Assembly (NCBI GenBank): GCA_005893305.1
Contig: VBOZ01000013.1
Span: 1-53,998, forward strand
Origin: Candidatus Eisenbacteria bacterium
GTDB lineage: Bacteria > Eisenbacteria > RBG-16-71-46 > SZUA-252
DNA length: 53,998 nt
Reading direction: 5' to 3'
This document shows positions 17,938 to 29,035 of this stretch, one piece after another; within the stretch, counting starts at the first letter, position 1, and every line of letters starts with the position of its first letter. Under the pieces are notes generated by a model, which worked only from the letters and a program-made list of their open reading frames with translations, had not been told where the DNA came from and searched no databases. Position numbers and translations under genes: made by a program.

Positions 17938-19002
17938 TCAGGTGTTTCGCACGTAATACTCGTACGCGACGGGGTCGTAGACGAGATCGAGCGTCGGCAC
18001 GAGCCGCACCTCCCCACCTCCGAACTTCCGCTTGAAGACGCTGATATCCGCCCAGGGGTGGTCGGGCTCCGCCTCCGGCGCGACGCCCCAGAAATCGTAC
18101 GACTCGTATCCCAGCGCCTTGGCCCGCCGCATGATCTCGAAGTGGAGCAGATAGGGGGCCATGAGGTTGCGGTGCGTCGCGAGCGATCCGCCGAAGAAGT
18201 AGGTCGCGCGCGGGCCGAAATAGACGACCAATGCCGCGGCGATGCGCTCTCCTCGATGCTCCGCAAAGAAGATCCCGCCGCGCTGCCGGTCGGTGAGCAG
18301 CTCGATCAGGCGCTCAAAGTAATCGTGGGGTTTCGCCCGGAGGCCTTGGCGGTCGGCCATGGCGTCGTAAATGCTCAGAAAATCCGCGAGGCCGTCCCAT
18401 GAGGTGTCCTCCACCACGCTGACGCCGTGGCGTCGCGCGACGCCGATGTTGTATCTCCCCTTCGGCTTCATCTGGGCCAGGATCGCCGCTTCCGGCGGGC
18501 GGAGGTCCACGCAGAGCGTATTTCGCGGCTCCATGTAGCGGTCCTGGAACGATCGGACTTGCTTGAAGCCCTTCATGAATTTCGGGAGGCGCTCCCAGCG
18601 GGGCTCGATCCGAAGGTGGCTCACGGGCAGCTCCTCCTGCTGGCGGCGCTGGTCGATCTCAGCGAGGGTGGCGCCCAGGACCTCCTCCGCGGCCCATTCG
18701 TCGCCGGGCAGCACCGGTCCCTCGGGGATGTAGTAGAAGCACTGCCCGGCCGGATACCGATAGGACATCACCAAGGCGCCGCCGACGATGAATCCGCGGT
18801 TCTTCAGCATGACGCCGAAGTGCCCATAGCCCGCGTCGACCCGGAAATCGGCCCACCACGAGGACTGCATGAACCCGGTCTCCGCGTTCGACTCGAGGAA
18901 CCTGTCCCATGCCAGCCATCGATCATCGGCCGCAGGCGGCTCCGGCGGCATCGACGGGGCCAGCGGGGCGGTGGAGGCGGATGTGAGCGGGGGGATCGAC
19001 AT
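17938..19002 (-). CDS. FemAB-family aminoacyltransferase (lipid II:glycine glycyltransferase-like)
   Basis: 354 residues with the double GNAT fold of FemABX proteins, which use aminoacyl-tRNA to attach amino acids to peptidoglycan precursors. Visible features are FMQSSWWADFRVDAGYG, NTLCVDLRPPEAAILAQMKPKGRYNIGVARRHGVSVVEDT (the hinge between the two halves), and YLLHFEIMRRAKALGYESYDFWG with a C-terminal VFKRKFGGGEVRLVP. Other FemAB-like proteins act on peptides or exopolysaccharide systems. The ATG overlaps the stop of the upstream gene (TGATG), placing it as the last gene of the peptide/export locus; a peptide substrate is therefore worth considering. No ABC or lipid II gene is near. Confidence 0.85.
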   Translation of the reverse strand: MSIPPLTSASTAPLAPSMPPEPPAADDRWLAWDRFLESNAETGFMQSSWWADFRVDAGYGHFGVMLKNRGFIVGGALVMSYRYPAGQCFYYIPEGPVLPGDEWAAEEVLGATLAEIDQRRQQEELPVSHLRIEPRWERLPKFMKGFKQVRSFQDRYMEPRNTLCVDLRPPEAAILAQMKPKGRYNIGVARRHGVSVVEDTSWDGLADFLSIYDAMADRQGLRAKPHDYFERLIELLTDRQRGGIFFAEHRGERIAAALVVYFGPRATYFFGGSLATHRNLMAPYLLHFEIMRRAKALGYESYDFWGVAPEAEPDHPWADISVFKRKFGGGEVRLVPTLDLVYDPVAYEYYVRNT

Positions 19003-20051
19003 CAGAGGGCCGGCAGCTCGGTCTCTTCGACACTGAATTCGACCGTCACCTGGTGGAGGCGGGGCTGAACCTCCATGAATTTGCAGAGGGCCGGGTTGAA
19101 ATAGTCCCGCAACATCGGGGGACGCGGATGCTTCAGAAAGTGATCCGGATGCCGCTCCAGCTCCGGGGAGCCCACCAGGTCCAGCTCCTCGCGATTTTTC
19201 ACGTGCTGGATGATGCAGGGCACGTGCCGGAACCCGCGCTTGTAGAGCATGTAGGCGCGATGGCTGCCGTTTCGGAGGATCAGGCGCTTCTCCGCGTAGA
19301 TCGCGTTCAGGAAGTTGGAGCCGAATCCCACCGCGATGCCGACGACCCCAACGAAATTGCCGGGGGGCGGATAGTCGGGGATGTCGCGCGGCTTGAGCGG
19401 CATGATGCCGAGGAAGCGAAGGTCATTCGATGGAGAGACGAAGACGTACTTGTCCCGCGGCGCTCGAGACCACTTGACCGGCGGATTGACGCGCTTGCGC
19501 GGGAGGCAGAGCTCGAAGATCTGCTCGTTGCTCGGGTCGGAGGGAAGGTCCCGTTGCAGCCGGTCGGCATGGGAGATGTCGATGTGCTTCTGATAGACGA
19601 CGACCCGGTCCAGGTCCACCATGGCGACCTCGGTCGGCACGGTGTTGAATCCGTGGCGAATGAGGGGCTCGCGAAACAGGTTGGCCAGGAGCGGCGAGTA
19701 TTCGGGACCGAGCTGGACGATCCGCGCGTTGTCCGCGGCGCCGGCCTCGCTCTTCTGCATCCCTCCCACAACGTCGTTGGCGGCGTTCCATTCGTCGATC
19801 AGATCCGATTCCCGCTGCGGCTCGGCGGCGTTGTGCCGAACGTGCCGCAGAAACTGCTTCAGGGTGGGCCGACCGATCAGGTAAAGCGCCCGGTTTTCGC
19901 TCGGGAACGCGGCGGGCTCGGATTCCACCGGGGATGTCGCGTGCTCCCCGACCCCCCTGGGCGGCGCCAGGGCGCCCGCCTCACGGGGCATGCCGTTCGA
20001 GGCGGCCTTCACCATCCGCCTGTTTGACTTCGCCCTTACCACCACGACCAT
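19002..20051 (-). CDS. unrecognised protein with a ParB-like RNGSHRAYML motif
   Basis: About 349 residues from ATG 20051. That ATG lies 1 nt after GGAGG, so the GTG two codons later (20045, spacing 7) may be the true start. No signal peptide or membrane segment is seen. The N-terminal 50 residues are low-complexity. The motif RLILRNGSHRAYMLYKRGF (about residues 256-274) followed by VPCIIQ resembles the Gxx-HR box of ParB/sulfiredoxin-fold enzymes, where the Arg contacts nucleotide, but no other ParB motif is evident. The gene overlaps the M50/HlyD fusion upstream by about 16 nt and the FemAB gene downstream by 1 nt, so it belongs to the same translationally coupled group. Confidence 0.7.
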   Translation of the reverse strand: MVVVVRAKSNRRMVKAASNGMPREAGALAPPRGVGEHATSPVESEPAAFPSENRALYLIGRPTLKQFLRHVRHNAAEPQRESDLIDEWNAANDVVGGMQKSEAGAADNARIVQLGPEYSPLLANLFREPLIRHGFNTVPTEVAMVDLDRVVVYQKHIDISHADRLQRDLPSDPSNEQIFELCLPRKRVNPPVKWSRAPRDKYVFVSPSNDLRFLGIMPLKPRDIPDYPPPGNFVGVVGIAVGFGSNFLNAIYAEKRLILRNGSHRAYMLYKRGFRHVPCIIQHVKNREELDLVGSPELERHPDHFLKHPRPPMLRDYFNPALCKFMEVQPRLHQVTVEFSVEETELPAL

Positions 20052-22525
20052 ACCTCCACGTTGAGAGTACGGGCCAGCTGCCGCGTCAGCAGGTCGATGA
20101 CGCTCCGTTTGCCGCACAGGACCTTGGCCTGTCCGGTCATGCCGGGCCGAAGGAACAGCGAACGATTGTCGATGAGGCTCGTGACGATGAAGACCTTGTC
20201 CCCGCCCGAATGGGTGACGGGAAGCGGTGAGGCGGCCTCCGTCACGGGAGTCGCGTCCGCCGCCACGGAGATCGACTTCACCCGGCCGTAAAACGTCGTG
20301 TTCGGATCGGCACGGGTTCTGAGCTCCACCCGCTGGCCGGCGCGGACTTCGCCGATCGATTTCTCGGGAACACGGATCTGCGCCGCCACGGTCTCGTAGT
20401 CGTAGACCTTGGCGATCAGGCCGCCGGTCGAGATGAGCTGCCGCTTCATGGCCTTGAGGTCGCGGGACGGGGTCGCGACGATGCCCGCTACGGGGCTCAC
20501 GACCTTCAGCTTCGCGTATTGCTGGGATAGGTCGCTCTGCTGGGACTCGAGGCGCTCCAGCCGCGCTCGGGCCGCCTCGATCTCGTCGGGCCGCGTCCCC
20601 ACCAGCAGGACATTGAGACGGCGCTGTGCCTCGAGCCTTTCACCCTCGGCCTTGGTGACGGCCGCCCTCGCGTCATCAAGCTGGGTTCGCGGCACCGCGC
20701 CGAGCTGGAATAGCTGGCCGTCTCGGGCCAATTGCGTGGCGGCATAATCGGCCGCGGCCTCGGTCTTGGCCAGCGTGGCCCGCGCGACCTGGATCTCGGC
20801 GTTCGTCGGACCATTCACGAGGCCTTGAACGATCGCGTGGAGCTCCCGAACCTGCGCCTCCGTCGCGTGAAGGTTGGTTTCAAGGTCCACGCTCGACAGC
20901 CTCGCGATCGGATCGCCCGCACGCACGCGATCTCCCTCGTCCACGTAGATCTCCTCCACGATCCCCGTGACCGCCGCCCGAATGTCGGCGTTCTCCTGCG
21001 GGAGCACGCTCACCGGACCGGACGCCCGAAGCTCCATCCGCCCGAGTAGAAGCACGAGGAGAAGCGCGGCCGCCCCCAGGATCAGGAGACGGCGCCTCGG
21101 CGTGCTGGACAAGGCTCCTTTGGAAGAACGATGGGCTCCCCCGTGTCCGTTCGATTCGACGCGAGCGGGGATCGGGGCGCTCTTCGGTTCGACGCGAGCG
21201 GGGATCGGAGCGCTCTTCGGTTCGACGCGAGCGGGGATCGGAGCGCTCTTCGATTCGACGCGAGCGGGGATCGCGGCGCCCGCGGAGCTCGGGGCGTCGT
21301 CGGGCGGCGAGGAGCCGGGGATATCGTCGTCCGTGTGAGCCGCCCCCGTCCCCATGAGCCGGCGAATCCGTCGACGGAACTTCGCGCCGGCGAGCACTCC
21401 GAACATGCCGAGCGCGAGCGGCTGACCGTTGTCGATCAGGAACCCCCCCGTCTTCAATGCCACGAACACCAGGAGCGTCATTGAGTAAACGGTCGCGACC
21501 ATTCCGTAGATCAGGTACACGCGGCGCTCGTGGGGTGAGGCGGACGACACAGGGGGCTCGCTCCACCCGACAAGCCGCTTGACCAGATCACCGATATGGC
21601 GGAATGACTTCTTCCTGAGGTTGGGGATGTCGAGGAAGTCGCTCAGCAAATAGTACCCGTCGAGCTTGATCAGCGGATTGAAGTTGAGGAGGGTCTTCAC
21701 CCCCGAGACGGCCATGACGATGACCGCCAAGGCGTTGATCCAGGCGTCCCCCGCCGTGACGCGCCAGACCAAGACGGCCAGCGCCCACAGGAACAACTCG
21801 AAGTAGGGACCCGCGAACCCGACCCAGAGACGCTTGGAGCGCTCGGGAAAGAGCCAGGCGTCGCTGACGTTGCAATAGAAGGCGGGCTGGAAGTAGACGA
21901 ACATGAACCCGATCTCGTGGACCTCCCCTCCGAAGTGCCGGCAAGCCATCCCATGCGCGAACTCATGCAACGACACCATGACCAACATGACCACGATGAG
22001 CGGACCAAGGGACGAGAGCTGATAGAGCCGCGCGAGATCCTGAACAAACCCGTTCCAATCCGAAGCCAGGGTGACGATGCCCGCGCAAATGACTGCCGCC
22101 GACAGCATCACGAACCCCCGCGTGAAGAAGAGCCGCGTCCGCGGCAGAAGCCAATTCATGATTCGCGTGGGATCGTAGAGCGGAAGCCGCGTAAGGAGCG
22201 CGTTGCCGTGGAATTTTCCCAGGACAAACGCGGGGCGAGGACGCGACGCCTTTTCGCCCTCCAGGAGGCCGCTGCGGTTGAGCCCACCCAGGAAGTGGGT
22301 GAGCGTCTCCTGGGACAATTCCGCGCCGAAATGGGACTCGGCGAGACTTCGGACCTCGTCGAGGGATCTCGTGCCGTCGAGTTGCCCCAGAATGAATTGC
22401 TCGACCTCGCCGAACCGAAAAAACTGACCGCCGACCGGATCCTTGACGACGACAAAGAGACCGGAATGCGTCCGATGCTGGCTAACGATCAGGTCGCTCC
22501 GGAATTTCGGAAGAGTGGAATTCAT
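20036..22525 (-). CDS. PqqD-like / M50 site-2 protease / HlyD adaptor fusion, first copy
   Basis: 829 residues from ATG 22525 (TTG at 22540 is an alternative). Residues 10-90 form a PqqD-like winged helix (VVKDPVGGQFFRFGEVEQFILGQLDGTRSLDEVRSL), a fold that binds leader peptides in RiPP systems. Residues 125-385 are a multi-helix M50 zinc protease with HEFAH (187-191) and the third-ligand motif NFNPLIKLDGYYLLSD (281-296, D289). A repeat linker (four copies of PIPARVExKSA, 419-459) precedes a membrane helix (479-496) and a HlyD-type periplasmic adaptor (about 500-820) with its lipoyl half-motif GIVEEIYVDEGDRVRAGDPIARL and coiled-coil hairpin. The fused layout suggests that peptide recognition, cleavage and export occur in one chain. 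Confidence 0.88.
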   Translation of the reverse strand: MNSTLPKFRSDLIVSQHRTHSGLFVVVKDPVGGQFFRFGEVEQFILGQLDGTRSLDEVRSLAESHFGAELSQETLTHFLGGLNRSGLLEGEKASRPRPAFVLGKFHGNALLTRLPLYDPTRIMNWLLPRTRLFFTRGFVMLSAAVICAGIVTLASDWNGFVQDLARLYQLSSLGPLIVVMLVMVSLHEFAHGMACRHFGGEVHEIGFMFVYFQPAFYCNVSDAWLFPERSKRLWVGFAGPYFELFLWALAVLVWRVTAGDAWINALAVIVMAVSGVKTLLNFNPLIKLDGYYLLSDFLDIPNLRKKSFRHIGDLVKRLVGWSEPPVSSASPHERRVYLIYGMVATVYSMTLLVFVALKTGGFLIDNGQPLALGMFGVLAGAKFRRRIRRLMGTGAAHTDDDIPGSSPPDDAPSSAGAAIPARVESKSAPIPARVEPKSAPIPARVEPKSAPIPARVESNGHGGAHRSSKGALSSTPRRRLLILGAAALLLVLLLGRMELRASGPVSVLPQENADIRAAVTGIVEEIYVDEGDRVRAGDPIARLSSVDLETNLHATEAQVRELHAIVQGLVNGPTNAEIQVARATLAKTEAAADYAATQLARDGQLFQLGAVPRTQLDDARAAVTKAEGERLEAQRRLNVLLVGTRPDEIEAARARLERLESQQSDLSQQYAKLKVVSPVAGIVATPSRDLKAMKRQLISTGGLIAKVYDYETVAAQIRVPEKSIGEVRAGQRVELRTRADPNTTFYGRVKSISVAADATPVTEAASPLPVTHSGGDKVFIVTSLIDNRSLFLRPGMTGQAKVLCGKRSVIDLLTRQLARTLNVEVWSWW
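21155..21280 (-). repeat. four tandem 33-bp repeats encoding the Pro-Ala-Arg-Val linker
   Basis: The core TTCGACGCGAGCGGGGATCG begins at 21155, 21188, 21221 and 21254, an exact 33-bp period. On the coding (minus) strand it encodes PIPARVExKSA. The repeat keeps the reading frame, so it is a protein linker between the protease and adaptor parts, and its high identity suggests recent slippage. Confidence 0.9.
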
Positions 22526-22540
22526 AGCGCTGTTGGCCAA

Positions 22541-22751
22541 CCGACCGGTACCTCAGTCAGAGGGTATTTCTGCCCCGCCGCTTCCGGTGCGGGATTGAGC
22601 TGGGGTTTCACTTGGCACGCGCGGTGCTCCGAGGTCGGGGGGATTGGCCCCGCCTGAAACGCCACCGCTTAGCGCTACATGGACCCGGCACTCATCCCGC
22701 ACCTTTCGCGCGGGGGTTATCCATGCATGGTAAGTAGTTGCATTCTCACTT
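22541..22751 (-). other. gap between the repeat-protein gene and the first M50 fusion
   Basis: No gene or convincing terminator was found. A CCATGCATGG palindrome lies at 22721-22730 and a short GC stem lies near 22697-22715. A sigma-54-like match lies on the other strand at 22613-22628. Confidence 0.4.
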
Positions 22752-23291
22752 CTAGCCGCAGTCGTCGCCCTTAGAGCCTCCGCCCTTCGAGCCACCACCG
22801 CCGGAGCCTCCGTTCGAGCCTCCGCTCTTCGAGCCGTGGCCGCCGGACCCTCCGTTCGAGCCGCCGTTCGAGGCATGGCCGCCGGACCCTCCGTTCGAGC
22901 CACCGCCCTTCGAGCCGCCGCCGGAGCCGCCGCAGTCACCCTTCGAGCCGCCGCCCTTCGAGCCGCCACCTTCGGCGCTCTTCGAGCCGTGGCCACGGGA
23001 GCCTTCGTTGGAGCCTCCGCCCTTCGAGCCTCCGCCCTTCGAGCCGCCACCTTCGGCGCTCTTCGAGCCGTGGCCATGGGAGCCTTCGTTGGAGCCTCCG
23101 CCCTTCGAGCCTCCGCCCTTGGAGCCTTCGTGCCCCTTCGAGCCTCCGCCATTCGAGCCGTGCCCCTTGGAGCCTTCGTGCCCCTTGGAGCCACCGCCCT
23201 TCGAGCCGCCCGAGCCGCTGCTGTGGACTGTTATGCCGCACGGCGCAATACGCTGCTCGAGCACTTCCATCTCGAGATACAGGTGTCTCAT
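22752..23291 (-). CDS. LEQRIAP-motif Gly/Ser/Lys repeat protein, candidate exported substrate
   Basis: 179 residues. The ATG at 23291 sits 6 nt from a very strong AGGAGGTGA ribosome site. The N-terminus MRHLYLEMEV-LEQRIAP-CG has no hydrophobic stretch and no Sec or Tat signal. LEQRIAP (residues 11-17) fits the LExRxxP-type pattern of the LEPR-XLL N-terminal motif of long repetitive proteins in Planctomycetes and relatives. From residue 24 on, the chain is almost only Gly, Ser, Lys, His, Asn and Glu in repeating GGGSKGGGSK and EGSxGHGSKSAEGGGSK units, ending GDDCG. It has three Cys (18, about 118 and 178) and many His, which could bind metal. No enzymatic domain is seen. Its place between two PqqD/M50/HlyD fusions suggests it is their substrate. 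Confidence 0.75.
   Translation of the reverse strand: MRHLYLEMEVLEQRIAPCGITVHSSGSGGSKGGGSKGHEGSKGHGSNGGGSKGHEGSKGGGSKGGGSNEGSHGHGSKSAEGGGSKGGGSKGGGSNEGSRGHGSKSAEGGGSKGGGSKGDCGGSGGGSKGGGSNGGSGGHASNGGSNGGSGGHGSKSGGSNGGSGGGGSKGGGSKGDDCG
22960..23121 (-). repeat. 81-bp tandem duplication inside the repeat-protein gene
   Basis: Two copies of an 81-bp unit (22960-23040 and 23041-23121) are almost identical, differing visibly at one base (CACGGG/CATGGG, giving Arg or His). It encodes 27 residues and is in frame, so it lengthens the repeat part of the protein. Confidence 0.85.
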
Positions 23292-23350
23292 CGATTGTCA
23301 CCTCCTCTCCAAGATCTGGCTTCCAGGCGGGGTAACCCTCGGGGCTGGCA

Positions 23351-23384
23351 ACACAAAAACCAGGAGATGCGCGCTCTCCTGGTT
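23351..23384 (-). terminator. intrinsic-terminator-like hairpin in the LEQRIAP leader
   Basis: On the minus strand AACCAGGAGA (23384-23375 region) and TCTCCTGGTT form a perfect 10-bp stem with a 7-nt loop, directly followed by TTTTTG. It lies 60 nt before the ATG of the LEQRIAP gene and after a good upstream candidate promoter, so it would stop transcription before the gene unless it is bypassed. A shorter hairpin CCTGTG/CACAGG lies just upstream (near 23400-23418), and GGCAAC/GTTGCC can extend the terminator stem. Confidence 0.7.
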
Positions 23385-23595: not shown

Positions 23596-23724
23596 TTACT
23601 CGCCCGAGGGCGGCACGTACAGCTGGCGGCGGGCCATACCGCGCGGGGTGGTCGAGGCAACCTTGCGTGCACCCTTCTTAGCGGACGTCTTCTTCGACTT
23701 GGCCTGGATCTTCTTGGCAGCCAT
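23596..23724 (-). CDS. 42-residue Lys/Ala-rich basic peptide
   Basis: ATG at 23724 with a strong AGGAGG ribosome site 6 nt before it, stop TAA at 23598-23596. The sequence begins MAAKKIQAKSKKTSAKKGAR and ends RRQLYVPPSGE. The first half is rich in Lys/Ala, reminiscent of histone-H1-like tails or basic RiPP leader-type sequences; the end is uncharged and contains PPSGE. No Cys. It is too short for most gene callers. It lies between the GAF/HlyD and LEQRIAP genes, has a sigma-54 promoter match at 23790-23803 upstream and a hairpin downstream, so it looks like a separately regulated gene. Function unknown; it may be a nucleic-acid-binding peptide or a peptide substrate of the export proteins. 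Confidence 0.65.
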   Translation of the reverse strand: MAAKKIQAKSKKTSAKKGARKVASTTPRGMARRQLYVPPSGE

Positions 23725-23928: not shown

Positions 23929-25899
23929 TCAAATCCAGAATTTCATCCTGATCGCGCGGCCGAGAGGCCGAAGCAGGTTCCACAAGAGCGGGCTCGAGCC
24001 CGCCTCGAGCTTGGCTCGACCCGTCATCCCGGCAAGCAGGGCGAGATCCGCATTCGCGCACTCCACCGTGACGCGGAAGGAGGCCGGCTTTCCGGGTAGG
24101 TCCACGGCCTCGGGCGCCACGGCCAGAATCCTGCCTCGGAATTGAAGATTGGGAAACGAGAGGACCTTTATCCTCGCCCGCTTGCCCACCTGGACCTTCC
24201 CGACGTCTTCCTCCGAGATCTGCACTTCCACATGCGCCGGGTCGAGCCGGGCGACCTCGCAGAGAACGTCCCCTCGCTCGAGGTGCTCGCCGACCTTCTC
24301 CTCGATCCGGGGTGTCAGGATGGAGCCGGTCACGGGAGCGGTGAGGCGTTGATCCTGCTCCTCGGAGCGCGCGTAGGCCATCCAGCCGGCCAGGTTCTGG
24401 GCCTCGAGCGACCAGCGCTGGGCCTCGGCGGGGTCGCGCCGCTGCGAGGCCTCCGCCGCCCGGCGCTGCGCGATCTTGAGGTCCGCCTCCGCCGCGGCCA
24501 GACGGGCGCTCGATTCTGTGTTCCGGAGGCTGGCGACGGCCGAGCCCGCCACGAGCCGTTCCCCTCCCTTGGCGTAGATCCGCTCCACGATGCCGGGGGC
24601 GAGGGCCGTGACCGGTAGGATTTCCGAGGGCCTAACGACGGCCGGCCCGACGGCGTTCTGGGGGAGCGGGACCGCGGCAACGAACAGGGCGGCCGCGGCG
24701 ATCCCTCCCAACAGGAGCGCGCGGGCCCGGGGATTCATTGCGTGGAGCCGCCGGCGCTGGGAAGCGAACGGCGCCAGGAATCCCACCATCGGCAGCCGGC
24801 GGTAGAGATCGGCGTTCCGGATCGCCACCGAGACCGATCCGCTCAGGATTCCGAGGAACTCCTCGGCGTCGGCGTCCCCGAATCCGGCCGGGTTCCGGGA
24901 CTCGAGAACCAGGTAGCCGAGAACCCCCTCCTCGTCCTGGAGCGGCAGGGCCAGGATCGACTGCATCTCCCCCGACTCGAAGTAGCGCGCGAACACGTCC
25001 CGGTCCGGTATCGCCAGGCCCTCCTCGGCCACGTGCTCGGCGGAGACGTGGAGCCGGCCGCGGCGGCGGAGGACTACGCCGAGGACATCGGCGATCCCGA
25101 GGACCTCCGCCTCGTTGGCCTCCACGGTCACCTTGTCACTGACCGCCCGGACCTTGAGCGCGCCCCCCTCGAGGAGCGCGACGAGCGCGCGGTCGCGCTC
25201 CACCACCGCCTCCGTGGTGTTCGCGACCGTCGCAAGCACTCGATTCAAGTCGAGGGTCGCGGTGATCTCGCCCGTGAACTTCGCGAGCGCGCGCAGCATC
25301 TCGATCTGGCGCGCGTTCTCCCGCTCGAGAACGTGCCTGCTCACCGCGATCGCGGAGGCCGAGCCGACGTACTCGACGAAGCGGAGATCGTCCCTCGAGA
25401 AGTCGCGCCCGTCAAAACGCCGGCAGAGCGCCAGGATCCCGACGACCGAGTCCCGCGCGCGAAGGGGCGCGTAGATCTCGAAGTAGGGGTTCCGCGCCTC
25501 GCCTTGGAGCCCCTGTTCGTCGCACCAGGTCACGAATTCCTCGTCCTTGAGGATCCCGGCCTGATCGACGGAGCCCGCCGACGCGCCCGCGACGCCTGCC
25601 GCGGCCTGCTCGACAAGGCTCTCTTCGAGGCCGGCCCTCAGATCATCGGGCGTGCCGTACAGGCAGAGGAGCCGGTACCCGCCTCCGGGTTCGGCGAGGA
25701 AGAGGGCACCCTCGCGCGATCCGACCGCGCCGGCCGCGACCGGAAGAAGGGCCGCGGCCATCCGCTCGAGGTCTTCGCTGCTCCCGAGGGCGGTGGCGAC
25801 TTCCTGGAGCGCGAGCGCGCGGGTGGTGATGGTCGTGAAGATCGTGCCGGTCGACGGGGTGTCGTCGATGAACGGTTTGCCTCTCTCGTGAATGGGCAT
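23929..25899 (-). CDS. double-GAF / HlyD-adaptor fusion protein
   Basis: 656 residues from ATG 25899, 2 nt after the stop of the second M50 fusion. Two GAF-type domains are predicted (about 30-190 and 210-365), then a single membrane helix (about 393-411, LLLGGIAAAALFVAAVPLP) and a HlyD/membrane-fusion adaptor (about 420-650) with GIVERIYAKGGERLVAGSAVASL, a short coiled-coil hairpin, TAPVTGSILTP and a beta-barrel end (EVQISEEDVGKVQVGKRARIKVLSFP). The GAF part would lie in the cytosol and the adaptor in the periplasm, so a sensor is linked to an export adaptor in one chain. I know of no well-characterised protein with this arrangement. Confidence 0.85.
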   Translation of the reverse strand: MPIHERGKPFIDDTPSTGTIFTTITTRALALQEVATALGSSEDLERMAAALLPVAAGAVGSREGALFLAEPGGGYRLLCLYGTPDDLRAGLEESLVEQAAAGVAGASAGSVDQAGILKDEEFVTWCDEQGLQGEARNPYFEIYAPLRARDSVVGILALCRRFDGRDFSRDDLRFVEYVGSASAIAVSRHVLERENARQIEMLRALAKFTGEITATLDLNRVLATVANTTEAVVERDRALVALLEGGALKVRAVSDKVTVEANEAEVLGIADVLGVVLRRRGRLHVSAEHVAEEGLAIPDRDVFARYFESGEMQSILALPLQDEEGVLGYLVLESRNPAGFGDADAEEFLGILSGSVSVAIRNADLYRRLPMVGFLAPFASQRRRLHAMNPRARALLLGGIAAAALFVAAVPLPQNAVGPAVVRPSEILPVTALAPGIVERIYAKGGERLVAGSAVASLRNTESSARLAAAEADLKIAQRRAAEASQRRDPAEAQRWSLEAQNLAGWMAYARSEEQDQRLTAPVTGSILTPRIEEKVGEHLERGDVLCEVARLDPAHVEVQISEEDVGKVQVGKRARIKVLSFPNLQFRGRILAVAPEAVDLPGKPASFRVTVECANADLALLAGMTGRAKLEAGSSPLLWNLLRPLGRAIRMKFWI

Positions 25900-25901
25900 C
25901 G

Positions 25902-27953
25902 TTAGAGCCAGAAATCCGTGCGCACGAAGTGGGACCAGGCGCGGCCCATGCGCTGGTAGAGGTTCCATCGGCCGACCTCGATGCGCGCGATTCCGCTTTC
26001 ACCGAATCGCACGCCCTCGGGCTCGCGGTCCAACCGGCCCCAGACCTTGAATCGTGCCTTGGTGCCTGGGGACTCCGGCGGCAGCGAGAACACGCGCTCC
26101 ACGCGCCCCGAGAGGCTCCGGCCGGGCTCGCTCCGGAGACGGAGCGTGAAGCGCTGCCCCGGCTCGATCTCACCGAGATCGAACTCTCGCAGATCGCATT
26201 CGACCTCGGACCCAGCGTCGCGCGCCAGCACGAGGAGCGTGTCCCCGGCTTCGAGGCGGGCGCCGAGGAGATCGGTCGGTCGCGGCGTGACCACGACGCC
26301 GCCTTCCCGGGCCGCCAGCGCGAGCCGCTCGCGGCTGGTCCGGAGGCCGGCTTCGTCGGCGATGGCGGCGCCCCGCTCCAGGGACGCGTCCTGATAGAGC
26401 GCCGGATTGGAACCCTCGATCGATCGGGCGAGATCGATCGAGCTCTTGTCCGAGCGCGACCTCGCCCCCTGCCATGCCGCGCGAAGGCTGTCGTTCTCGA
26501 GGATCGCCACGACGCGCCCCGGAAAGACGCGATCGCCTTCCCGGACCAGGACCGCGGCGACTCGCCCGGGCTCCTCGGCGCGGACCACCTCGCGTTCCGC
26601 CGCGACGTAGCGGGCGTGGGCGGCCACGTAGCCGGGCAGCCGGACGAATTGGGCCGCGACGCCGAGAACGAGAACGGCCACGGCCCAGGTCAGCGTCTTC
26701 CGGGTCGGGTTCCGCACGGCCTTTGCCGCCTGCGCCAGAGCGTCCCCGGCCGGCTTCCGCACGAACATCCCCAGCATGCAGGCGAAGACGATGAAGCCGG
26801 TCTCCGACCAGGCGCTGACCAACGCGCCTTTGAGCCATTGGAAGAAGCAGAAGATAATGAGGTAGGAATGAACCAGCGTCGCGAGGCCATACGTGAAGTA
26901 CGCGCGCCGCCGGCGTATCCCGAGAACCTGCTCCCCCGGATTCGCCCGCCGAAACGGCCGCCGAATCAGATCCCGCACGTATCGCATCGACTTTTCCCGG
27001 AGCTCGGCGATCTGGAGGATGTCGCTCAGCACAAAATAGCCGTCGTACTTGAGAAGCGGATTCAGGTTCCAGAAGACGCCGAAAAGGAGCCCCATCATCA
27101 TGACGCGATAGGAGAGGTCGTTGATCCCCAGCCCCGGCGGCGTGATTTGCCAGAGCAGGGCCGCGGCGACCGTGATGAACGACTCGAAGTAGATCCCCCC
27201 CATCGCCACCCAGATGCGATGCCATCGGTTTTCAAAGAGCATCGAATGCGACACGTCGCAGAAGAAGCAGGGGCCGAAGTACAGAACCATGAACCCCAGT
27301 CGATGGACTTCACCCCCGAAGTGCTTGCAGGCATAGGCGTGGCCGAACTCGTGCACAGCGCCCACGACCGTGAGGATCACGACGATGAACAGGATCCCCT
27401 GGGCGGCGCTGCCCCCTCCGGTGAATCCGAGGAGGTAGTTCGGGTCGAAGCTCACCCGGTCCCGGTTCACGATGACGAGCCACAGGCACCAGAGGAGCCC
27501 CAATGTGACCGCGTAGACCGGTACGGGACGGAAGAGCCAGCGCACACTGTGAATCGTGCGGTTGAGGAACGCGTCCGGATCCCAGATCCCGAACTCCCAG
27601 CGGAGCATGTTCCGGAAGATTTGGGCGACGCGAGGGCGACGCGCCCGGGCCCGCTCGATCAGGAGGAGATTTTTGCTGTAGGGATCCTCGAGAAGGCCGA
27701 TCGCGTTCAGGTCCTGGACCGCTTCCTCGACGACGGGGAGCGAGAAGTCGTTGTACGGCATCGCCTCCTGGCAAAGGCGCGCGACGTCGGCGAGCGTGCG
27801 GTCCCGATCGAGGTGGATCGCGACGAGATAGGTGTACGGGTCGATTCGAAAATACTTGTCCCGCTCGGAATCGCAGACCGTGTAGGCGACGTCATCGCCC
27901 TCGGCTACCTTCCGGATGACGAGCCCATCCCGAAGCTTGGGGTTGCGGTTCAC
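25902..27953 (-). CDS. PqqD-like / M50 site-2 protease / HlyD adaptor fusion, second copy
   Basis: 683 residues. GTG at 27953 overlaps the adaptor stop upstream as GTGA; a longer upstream frame is a shadow. Residues 8-88 form a PqqD-like winged helix (VAYTVCDSERDKYFRIDPYTYLVAIHLDRDRTLADVARL). Residues 140-400 form the M50 protease with HEFGH (201-205) and NLNPLLKYDGYFVLSD (296-311). A membrane helix (about 420-438) leads into a HlyD-type adaptor (about 440-665), less complete than in the first copy: there is a lipoyl half-motif GRVAAVLVREGDRVFPGRVVAIL and a barrel segment, but a shorter hairpin. It lacks the repeat linker of the first copy. The two proteases share only the layout and motifs, so they are old paralogues and may process different substrates. 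Confidence 0.88.
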   Translation of the reverse strand: MNRNPKLRDGLVIRKVAEGDDVAYTVCDSERDKYFRIDPYTYLVAIHLDRDRTLADVARLCQEAMPYNDFSLPVVEEAVQDLNAIGLLEDPYSKNLLLIERARARRPRVAQIFRNMLRWEFGIWDPDAFLNRTIHSVRWLFRPVPVYAVTLGLLWCLWLVIVNRDRVSFDPNYLLGFTGGGSAAQGILFIVVILTVVGAVHEFGHAYACKHFGGEVHRLGFMVLYFGPCFFCDVSHSMLFENRWHRIWVAMGGIYFESFITVAAALLWQITPPGLGINDLSYRVMMMGLLFGVFWNLNPLLKYDGYFVLSDILQIAELREKSMRYVRDLIRRPFRRANPGEQVLGIRRRRAYFTYGLATLVHSYLIIFCFFQWLKGALVSAWSETGFIVFACMLGMFVRKPAGDALAQAAKAVRNPTRKTLTWAVAVLVLGVAAQFVRLPGYVAAHARYVAAEREVVRAEEPGRVAAVLVREGDRVFPGRVVAILENDSLRAAWQGARSRSDKSSIDLARSIEGSNPALYQDASLERGAAIADEAGLRTSRERLALAAREGGVVVTPRPTDLLGARLEAGDTLLVLARDAGSEVECDLREFDLGEIEPGQRFTLRLRSEPGRSLSGRVERVFSLPPESPGTKARFKVWGRLDREPEGVRFGESGIARIEVGRWNLYQRMGRAWSHFVRTDFWL

Positions 27954-29035
27954 CGTGAGTCGACGATCTCCACGACGGAGCCGTCGCGGAGCGGCCGGTC
28001 GGTGCCGACGACGACGTTGCCGTGGCCGCCCAGGCCCGATTCGATTTGGATCGCGTCTCCGTGCGAGGGCCCGAGCCGGACCACGCAACGGTGGACGCGA
28101 TCGGAGTCGCAGCGCCACACCCACGTGGAGCCGCCTTCCGCCTCCACGATCGTCGTGCCCGGGACGGTGCAACTCTCGTCTCCGGGTTGCACCGGCAGAA
28201 CGAATCGGGCCTCCGCGCCGGCCTCGGGGCTGGCCGACCGGCTGCGAAACGTGGCGACCACCTTGAAGGTTCCGCTCGCCGGATCGGTGAGCGGATCCAC
28301 CCGGCTCACCGTCGCCTCGATCGGCGCCCCGCCTCGCGCCGGCTCCAGGCGAACGCGTGTCCCTGGCCGCACCGCTCCGCGGAATGCCGACGGCAGATAG
28401 GCCGAGGCGCGAAGACGATATGGATCGGTCACGCGGAGGAGCGGCTGTCCCACGACCACGCGGTGGAGCGGCTGGACGCGGATCATCCATGCGAGCCCCG
28501 CGATCGGGGCGCGCACCGCGCAACGGGAGAGGGCGACCTGGGAGAGGCCGAGCGCCGCCTCGGCGCGGTCGAGCTGGAGCCTGGCCTGCTCGACCTCGCG
28601 CGCGGCCACGTGGCCCTGTTGGTCCAGCGCCTGCGCCCGGTTGAGCTGCGAGAGCGCCCAGGCTCTCTCCGCCTCGTCGCGCTGAAGGGCGAGACGCTCG
28701 TCCCTGTCGTCGATAATGAGAAGCGTGTCTCCCTCCTCGACGCGCTGTCCCTCCACGACGCGGATCTCGAAGATGTCGCCGTCGGTCTCCGCGACCAGCT
28801 CCGCCTCCCGCTCGGCCTCCAGGTAGGTGGCGAACGAGGTTCCACCCTCGGAGGTCGGAAGCGCGGCGGCAACGCGGACCCGCGGCACGGAGCTCTGACG
28901 GGTGGCCGCGTCGGTCCGCGACGCCGGTTCGGGCGAGGGACCGGAACAGCCGGCCCCGAGCAAGCCGACCGTGAGCGGCAGGATCATCAGCGGGGCGAAG
29001 CGGCGGAAGGCATCCCCAAGCCGCCGGGCGATCAT
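27950..29035 (-). CDS. membrane-fusion lipoprotein, HlyD/RND adaptor type
   Basis: 361 residues from ATG 29035, overlapping the kinase stop (ATGA). A lipoprotein signal ends LLGAGC-SG with Cys30 as the lipid-modified residue. The body is a periplasmic adaptor: barrel-sandwich ELVAETDGDIFEIRVVEGQRVEEGDTLLIIDD, an alpha-hairpin (about 130-185), APIAGLAWMIRVQPLHRVVVGQPLLRV, and a membrane-proximal domain. This is the type that joins RND pumps or MacB/ABC exporters to TolC channels. No pump gene is seen next to it. Confidence 0.88.
   Translation of the reverse strand: MIARRLGDAFRRFAPLMILPLTVGLLGAGCSGPSPEPASRTDAATRQSSVPRVRVAAALPTSEGGTSFATYLEAEREAELVAETDGDIFEIRVVEGQRVEEGDTLLIIDDRDERLALQRDEAERAWALSQLNRAQALDQQGHVAAREVEQARLQLDRAEAALGLSQVALSRCAVRAPIAGLAWMIRVQPLHRVVVGQPLLRVTDPYRLRASAYLPSAFRGAVRPGTRVRLEPARGGAPIEATVSRVDPLTDPASGTFKVVATFRSRSASPEAGAEARFVLPVQPGDESCTVPGTTIVEAEGGSTWVWRCDSDRVHRCVVRLGPSHGDAIQIESGLGGHGNVVVGTDRPLRDGSVVEIVDSR

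Follow-up and report, generated by a model that had tools for sequence, protein, structure and literature searches.

A tagged Gly/Ser/Lys-repeat precursor gene adjoining an RRE-M50-HlyD fusion gene in Candidatus Eisenbacteria

The window (i.e., the whole stretch of DNA analysed here, 53,998 nucleotides of contig VBOZ01000013.1 from Candidatus Eisenbacteria, an uncultured soil bacterium) carries a small gene for a Gly/Ser/Lys-repeat protein beside a gene for a three-part fusion protein, followed by two further genes and preceded by a second, related set (Table 1). The small protein bears the motif LEQRIAP at residues 11–17, its core is 47% Gly, 22% Ser and 10% Lys, and no hydrophobic Sec-like N-terminal segment was seen by eye. 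The earlier note had described this reading frame, its motif position, the lack of a signal peptide, a low-complexity core with His and three Cys, and a very strong ribosome site, and all of this proved accurate for the minus-strand gene. Evidence for the terminator-like hairpin upstream is weak: two such sites were detected where 1.6 are expected by chance. The RNA of the ~0.2-kb gap between the precursor and fusion genes (22530..22760, minus strand) has a stable fold (z -3.2).

Table 1. Coordinates of the features discussed, in positions of the window.
Feature	Position	Strand	Basis
Precursor gene, 179 aa, leader plus Gly/Ser/Lys-repeat core, stop codon included	22752..23291	-	ORF; leader kept in relatives
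Leader, residues 1-17, MRHLYLEMEVLEQRIAP	23241..23291	-	alignment of 83 peptides; purifying selection
Core, 162 residues, 16 GSK and 6 GSN-type units, 3 Cys, 9 His	22755..23240	-	no Pfam/NCBIfam match
Shine-Dalgarno GGAGGTGA, 8-base match, 6 nt before ATG	23298..23305	-	sequence
Terminator-like hairpin, 10 pairs, T-rich tail, between Lys-rich small gene and precursor gene	23358..23384	-	weak
RRE-M50-HlyD fusion, 834 aa (likelier start ATG 22525)	20036..22540	-	profiles, predicted fold, conserved motifs
Predicted PqqD-like RiPP recognition element (RRE), N-terminal	22226..22516	-	profile matches, predicted fold, PqqD-family models
M50 active-site stretch, HEFAHG to NPLIKLDGYY	21650..21967	-	kept in nearly all homologues
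371-aa protein, no named family, possible ParB/sulfiredoxin-like fold, adjoins fusion gene	19002..20117	-	13 loci, weak fold match, no Pfam
FemX/FemAB-type aminoacyl transferase	17938..19002	-	FemX E 2e-21, full length
Second M50-HlyD gene	28523..25902		
GAF-domain protein fused to HlyD adaptor	25968..23929	-	kept beside second M50-HlyD gene in G001, G035, G037
Lys-rich ORF, 42 aa, MAAKKIQAKSKKTSAKKGARKVASTTPRGMARRQLYVPPSGE	23724..23596	-	good ribosome site; directly downstream of GAF-HlyD gene

Several frames are open on both strands here, as happens in GC-rich repeats, and the ORF might on that ground be a spurious frame. The coding frame is nonetheless identified, because codon changes in the leader among relatives are mostly synonymous (six synonymous and none nonsynonymous between loci L013 and L014; six and three between the window and L013); overlapping ORFs on the opposite strand and in other frames are without comparable support. 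With a perfect ribosome site and a conserved gene order besides, the chance of a spurious frame is negligible: the ORF at 23291..22752 is a real gene, its frame beyond chance. Leader homology stops at about residue 17–19, short of residue 23, to which the earlier note had extended it. The rest of that proposal—a substrate made of leader and core, without a Sec signal—held up well, as the leader is kept far beyond the window, the cores vary and the RRE-M50-HlyD gene adjoins. The core might, as the earlier note also suggested, bind metal; Cys are missing in many of the relatives. The precursor peptide had no match in Pfam, NCBIfam or PADLOC, a tblastn search of plasmids found nothing, and its own genome (a 2.7-Mb draft) holds no further LEQRIAP copies; a looser form of the motif was no more frequent than its reversed control.

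We scanned all GTDB species genomes with a degenerate DNA pattern for the tag L-x-[hydrophobic, LIV]-E-x-L-E-x-R-I-A-P and obtained at least 119 stretches, against about eight matches expected by chance at uniform base composition (more in GC-rich genomes). At least 93 of the matches are short ORFs (<200 aa) with the tag near the start, drawn from several phyla. Among the matches listed, about 90 sit at the N-terminus of a short ORF that has a good ribosome site; they come from Verrucomicrobia, Acidobacteria, Rokubacteria, Gemmatimonadetes, Zixibacteria, Planctomycetes, Proteobacteria MAGs and other groups. Since the search pattern itself set the motif columns, their invariance in the 83-peptide alignment is no independent evidence, and the case for a family rests instead on linkage and synonymous substitution. 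Cores of the tagged peptides are unrelated to each other, often with several copies per locus. Some core types, such as GYEGQPGNQGN and GNPGNNNPPLNNTNNPGNEGTGG, recur across phyla among the matches listed, where the shortest cores are 7 residues long and many span 7–30; tagged peptides of Zixibacteria measure 24–30 aa in all. Closer to the window, genomes G003 and G007 (the latter of the same family as the window) have MRHLNLELEKLEQRIAPGG peptides ahead of the homologous fusion gene, their GSK or GSN cores differing in length from the window's, and one locus in G037 encodes four peptides that share the tag but have entirely different cores. By its conserved leader and variable core, the window peptide is a RiPP-like precursor, and its tag is a widespread N-terminal element that lies outside all Pfam and NCBIfam models searched and for which a testable partner and mechanism can now be proposed.

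Some peptides depart from this layout. In Gemmatimonadetes, peptides of ~50 aa (IELTPEQKxxxRxATGKDAEAVELSVEELEERIAPxxxx) carry the tag near the C-terminus with 4–11 residues after it (L042, L048, L064, L103, L123, L125, L126, L139), several of them beside GAF-HlyD genes like that of the window; with the tag placed in this way, tag and product are not necessarily leader and core in every case. An Aminicenantes MAG encodes four identical tandem 31-aa peptides, MAKKSTKKVVKLNVERLEKRIAPTRAAIAMG (L180, 8315..7840, minus strand). Two sets of profile matches were rejected: those of six relatives to the His-Xaa-Ser repeat models HxsA3/HxsA4 reach at most 30 bits against cut-offs of 55–65 and cover the low-complexity core only (the window protein has no match to these models), and collagen matches of relatives reflect core composition only.

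The tag is physically linked to the fusion gene, at a distance of 0.1–0.5 kb. Among the matches listed, an M50 homologue lies within 3 kb of 61 of 93 short N-terminal-tag ORFs (46 of 72 loci, many of which end <1 kb from the peptide), of none of 13 long tagged ORFs, and of 4 of 41 other matches, all four being tagged peptides with weak ribosome sites. The pairing also holds at the level of genomes. When tag and M50 part were searched separately in the 188 genomes of one class (that of G055), the tag occurred in three genomes and a fusion homologue at E<1e-100 in the same three (next best 3.5e-55), adjacent each time; full coincidence has a chance of ~9e-7, G055 being a chosen case. Within the window's own phylum, a strong homologue and adjacent strict tag peptides coincide in 4 of 47 genomes (G000, G003, G007, G037). 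The precursor family, its physical linkage and its genome-level pairing with the fusion gene are thus shown by computation. A further pattern match, LESLEPRVAP, was noted in G034 of the same phylum, and a search for small LEPR/LExR-type ORFs near more distant M50-HlyD homologues gave none that convinced.

What the fusion protein contains bears on how the tag might be read. The three best PDB profile matches of its N-terminal 97 residues are TfuB1 (E 0.017), PqqD (0.029) and TbiB1 (0.1), all of them RiPP recognition elements, and PqqD-family NCBIfam models match many fusion members weakly. The predicted structure of this domain (pLDDT 83) retrieves as its six best matches TbiB1/TfuB1 structures solved with leader peptides (best E 1.8e-3, probability 1.0), followed by 5why and SkfB, RRE-bearing RiPP maturases. 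By profile and predicted fold, then, the N-terminus is assigned as an RRE, which places a putative leader-recognition domain in a protein linked to the precursor; this assignment and that of the M50 part are likewise shown by computation. The M50 part has conserved HExxH and NPLxKxDG and, with these catalytic motifs and its linkage to precursors, is a putative leader protease. The C-terminal half matches HlyD, EmrA and MacA adaptors and ends, in most homologues, in RVEFWSWW. It is unusual for an RRE, a membrane protease and an export adaptor to be joined in a single polypeptide.

The best-supported reading, to which we give a probability of about 0.7, is that the window gene encodes a leader-bearing precursor that is recognised, cut and exported by its RRE-M50-HlyD partner. 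Residues 1–17 would form the leader, read by the N-terminal RRE of the neighbouring protein; the M50 domain would make its cut at the inner membrane, shortly behind RIAP; and the HlyD domain would pass the Gly/Ser/Lys core outward via a TolC-like channel. Binding of the leader, the cut and its position, export, modification of side chains and a biological role as an extracellular or surface peptide are inferred. An energised inner-membrane transporter usually accompanies HlyD adaptors, and no such transporter is conserved across the tag loci, which counts against this reading. M50 proteases do mature known RiPPs (EpeP, TglG, TmoG), EpeP being credited with cleavage as well as export (PMC10885120); a literature search on the LEERIAP tag, LEPR-XLL, RRE-M50-HlyD and FemAB in RiPPs returned nothing relevant beyond such proteases. 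An alternative is that the gene encodes a signalling or antimicrobial peptide akin to epipeptides or daptides, with its maturation enzymes elsewhere in the genome. The M50 part does score on the daptide protease model NF041824 (E 1.8e-67) and the epipeptide protease model YydH/LiaK NF058609 (E 2e-10), and multi-copy short precursors are typical of such systems; yet both scores fall below the curated cut-offs (228 against 300 and 40.6 against 225 bits), no radical SAM enzyme, aminotransferase or methyltransferase recurs near the loci, and hydrophilic low-complexity cores do not look membrane-active, which makes a peptide of this kind very unlikely.

At loci of the window's type, a processed core might also be modified. 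The FemX-type neighbour scores 120.8 bits against Pfam FemAB (gathering cut-off 24), which makes it a family member, and its full-length alignment to FemX, a protein whose structure is known, has E 2e-21. FemX is a UDP-MurNAc-pentapeptide lysine alanyltransferase and acts on a Lys side chain. The FemX-type gene is found at six loci in three phyla, and every core there has at least four [GSTA]K units, whereas among ~28 loci that have intact flanks and no FemX-type gene just one is Lys-rich (Fisher p ~5e-6, a value that overstates independence as loci are related within phyla); its association with Lys-rich cores is shown by computation. A homologue of the 371-aa neighbour follows the fusion gene at 13 loci; compared with 24 negative loci with adequate flanks, the cores there contain more Ser, Lys and Cys and less Asn and Pro (S+T content, p 0.0002). 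The structure predicted for this neighbour is of low confidence (pLDDT 65) and resembles mostly ParB, sulfiredoxin and SbnI, all weakly (E above 0.03), so a nucleotide-dependent role is only a suggestion. Co-occurrence with the two genes suggests that Lys and Ser of GSK-type repeats are modified: the FemX-type enzyme would add amino acids from aminoacyl-tRNA to the repeat Lys side chains before export, and the ParB/Srx-like protein would act on Ser/Thr. A modified core, as the earlier note had envisaged, is accordingly plausible for the window peptide, given that the FemX-type gene occurs only with Lys-repeat cores, and the transfer of amino acids from tRNA to the Lys side chains of a repeat would possibly be new RiPP chemistry.

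A second system of the same kind may lie in the window. The Lys-rich small ORF that directly follows the GAF-HlyD gene appears to represent another family of precursors, one for the second M50-HlyD gene. Relatives of this ORF were seen in G001 (two tandem copies), G037:C12 (two) and G035, with the Lys-rich start and the position kept and differing C-termini.

No maturation enzyme common to all tag loci was found, and because most loci, those with K-poor cores, are without a recurrent modifying enzyme, the core may simply be secreted unmodified. A rival reading builds on this lack and makes the tag an uncleaved or incidentally cleaved targeting signal for plain secretion of structural low-complexity proteins (adhesive or matrix) without post-translational modification, an idea also in keeping with the collagen-like or Gly-rich cores of some relatives and with the tag's place, among the matches listed, at the start of giant repeat ORFs of 500–1800 aa in Planctomycetes whose genomes also have an RRE-M50-HlyD gene. 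An M50-HlyD homologue was found in all six giant-tag genomes searched first and in four further long-ORF genomes, and was absent from 9 of 10 control genomes with chance-like tag matches; the rate for comparison, some homologue at E 1e-30 in 35 of 188 genomes, is that of G055's class and not a Planctomycetes base rate. One planctomycete class tested for giant proteins held a single positive genome, too few for a statistic. Against plain secretion stand the intact protease active site kept throughout, the many cores of 7–30 residues (in Zixibacteria the whole peptides measure 24–30 aa), too short for structural proteins, and the specificity of the FemX association for Lys repeats; we consider it improbable beside recognition, cleavage and export of a precursor. 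One planctomycete, G094, has nine LExR[IV]AP-type matches, and 74 other genomes searched of its class have none.

The giant proteins recall the LEPR-XLL motif, which the earlier note saw mirrored in the precursor's N-terminus. LEPR-XLL denotes an N-terminal motif on a very long repetitive protein; the window protein is repetitive and has its motif at the N-terminus, but is 179 aa long. The profile search that had been suggested went against membership: model NF012209 (cut-off 17 bits) gave no match up to E 10 to the window protein or its first 28 aa, nor, across the own genome, to the precursor leader (C13:23242; best elsewhere 12.7 bits). Because the model misses the window protein yet scores above cut-off in G055, G099, G103 and G104, the resemblance is a lead and not membership; what survives is a similar motif architecture and the presence of LEPR proteins in genomes with the same kind of exporter, the LEPR protein of G055 (FTLEAMEPRIMLSAD) lying ~5 kb from an M50-HlyD gene. 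The LExRIAP and LEPR-XLL tags may both serve one Sec-independent pathway. A wider proposal, which we hold tentatively and think somewhat unlikely to be right in full, is that they are two forms of one Sec-independent N-terminal signal and that recognition, cleavage and help with the export of short peptides and giant repetitive proteins alike all fall to a single RRE-M50-HlyD polypeptide, with the FemX-type enzyme of the GSK subtype charging repeat Lys side chains from aminoacyl-tRNA to yield branched peptides. It would offer a way to explain the LEPR-XLL motif of giant planctomycete proteins, long a puzzle.

Set beside known systems, the locus shares a part with each. Like LEPR-XLL proteins, the precursor is repetitive, has no Sec signal and bears an N-terminal motif built on one plan with theirs ([LF]x[LIV]Ex[LM]ExRI..); it differs in having RIAP-G/S where they have RxLLS and in being short where they are giant. 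Like epipeptide (EpeX/YydF) and daptide loci, it pairs a short ribosomal precursor with a membrane M50 protease of a related kind, thought to cut and help export (PMC10885120, for EpeP); here, however, the protease carries an RRE at its N-terminal end and a HlyD domain at its C-terminal end, no epimerase or daptide enzymes are nearby, and the precursors differ. In lasso peptide B1/B2 systems (TfuB1, TbiB1), an RRE binds a short leader and directs a protease, and the window's predicted fold matches the leader-bound structures, but its protease is a membrane metalloprotease of the M50 family where theirs is a transglutaminase-like cysteine protease, and there is no cyclase. The transferase, finally, resembles FemX along its full length, yet it adjoins a Lys-repeat precursor and not cell-wall genes.
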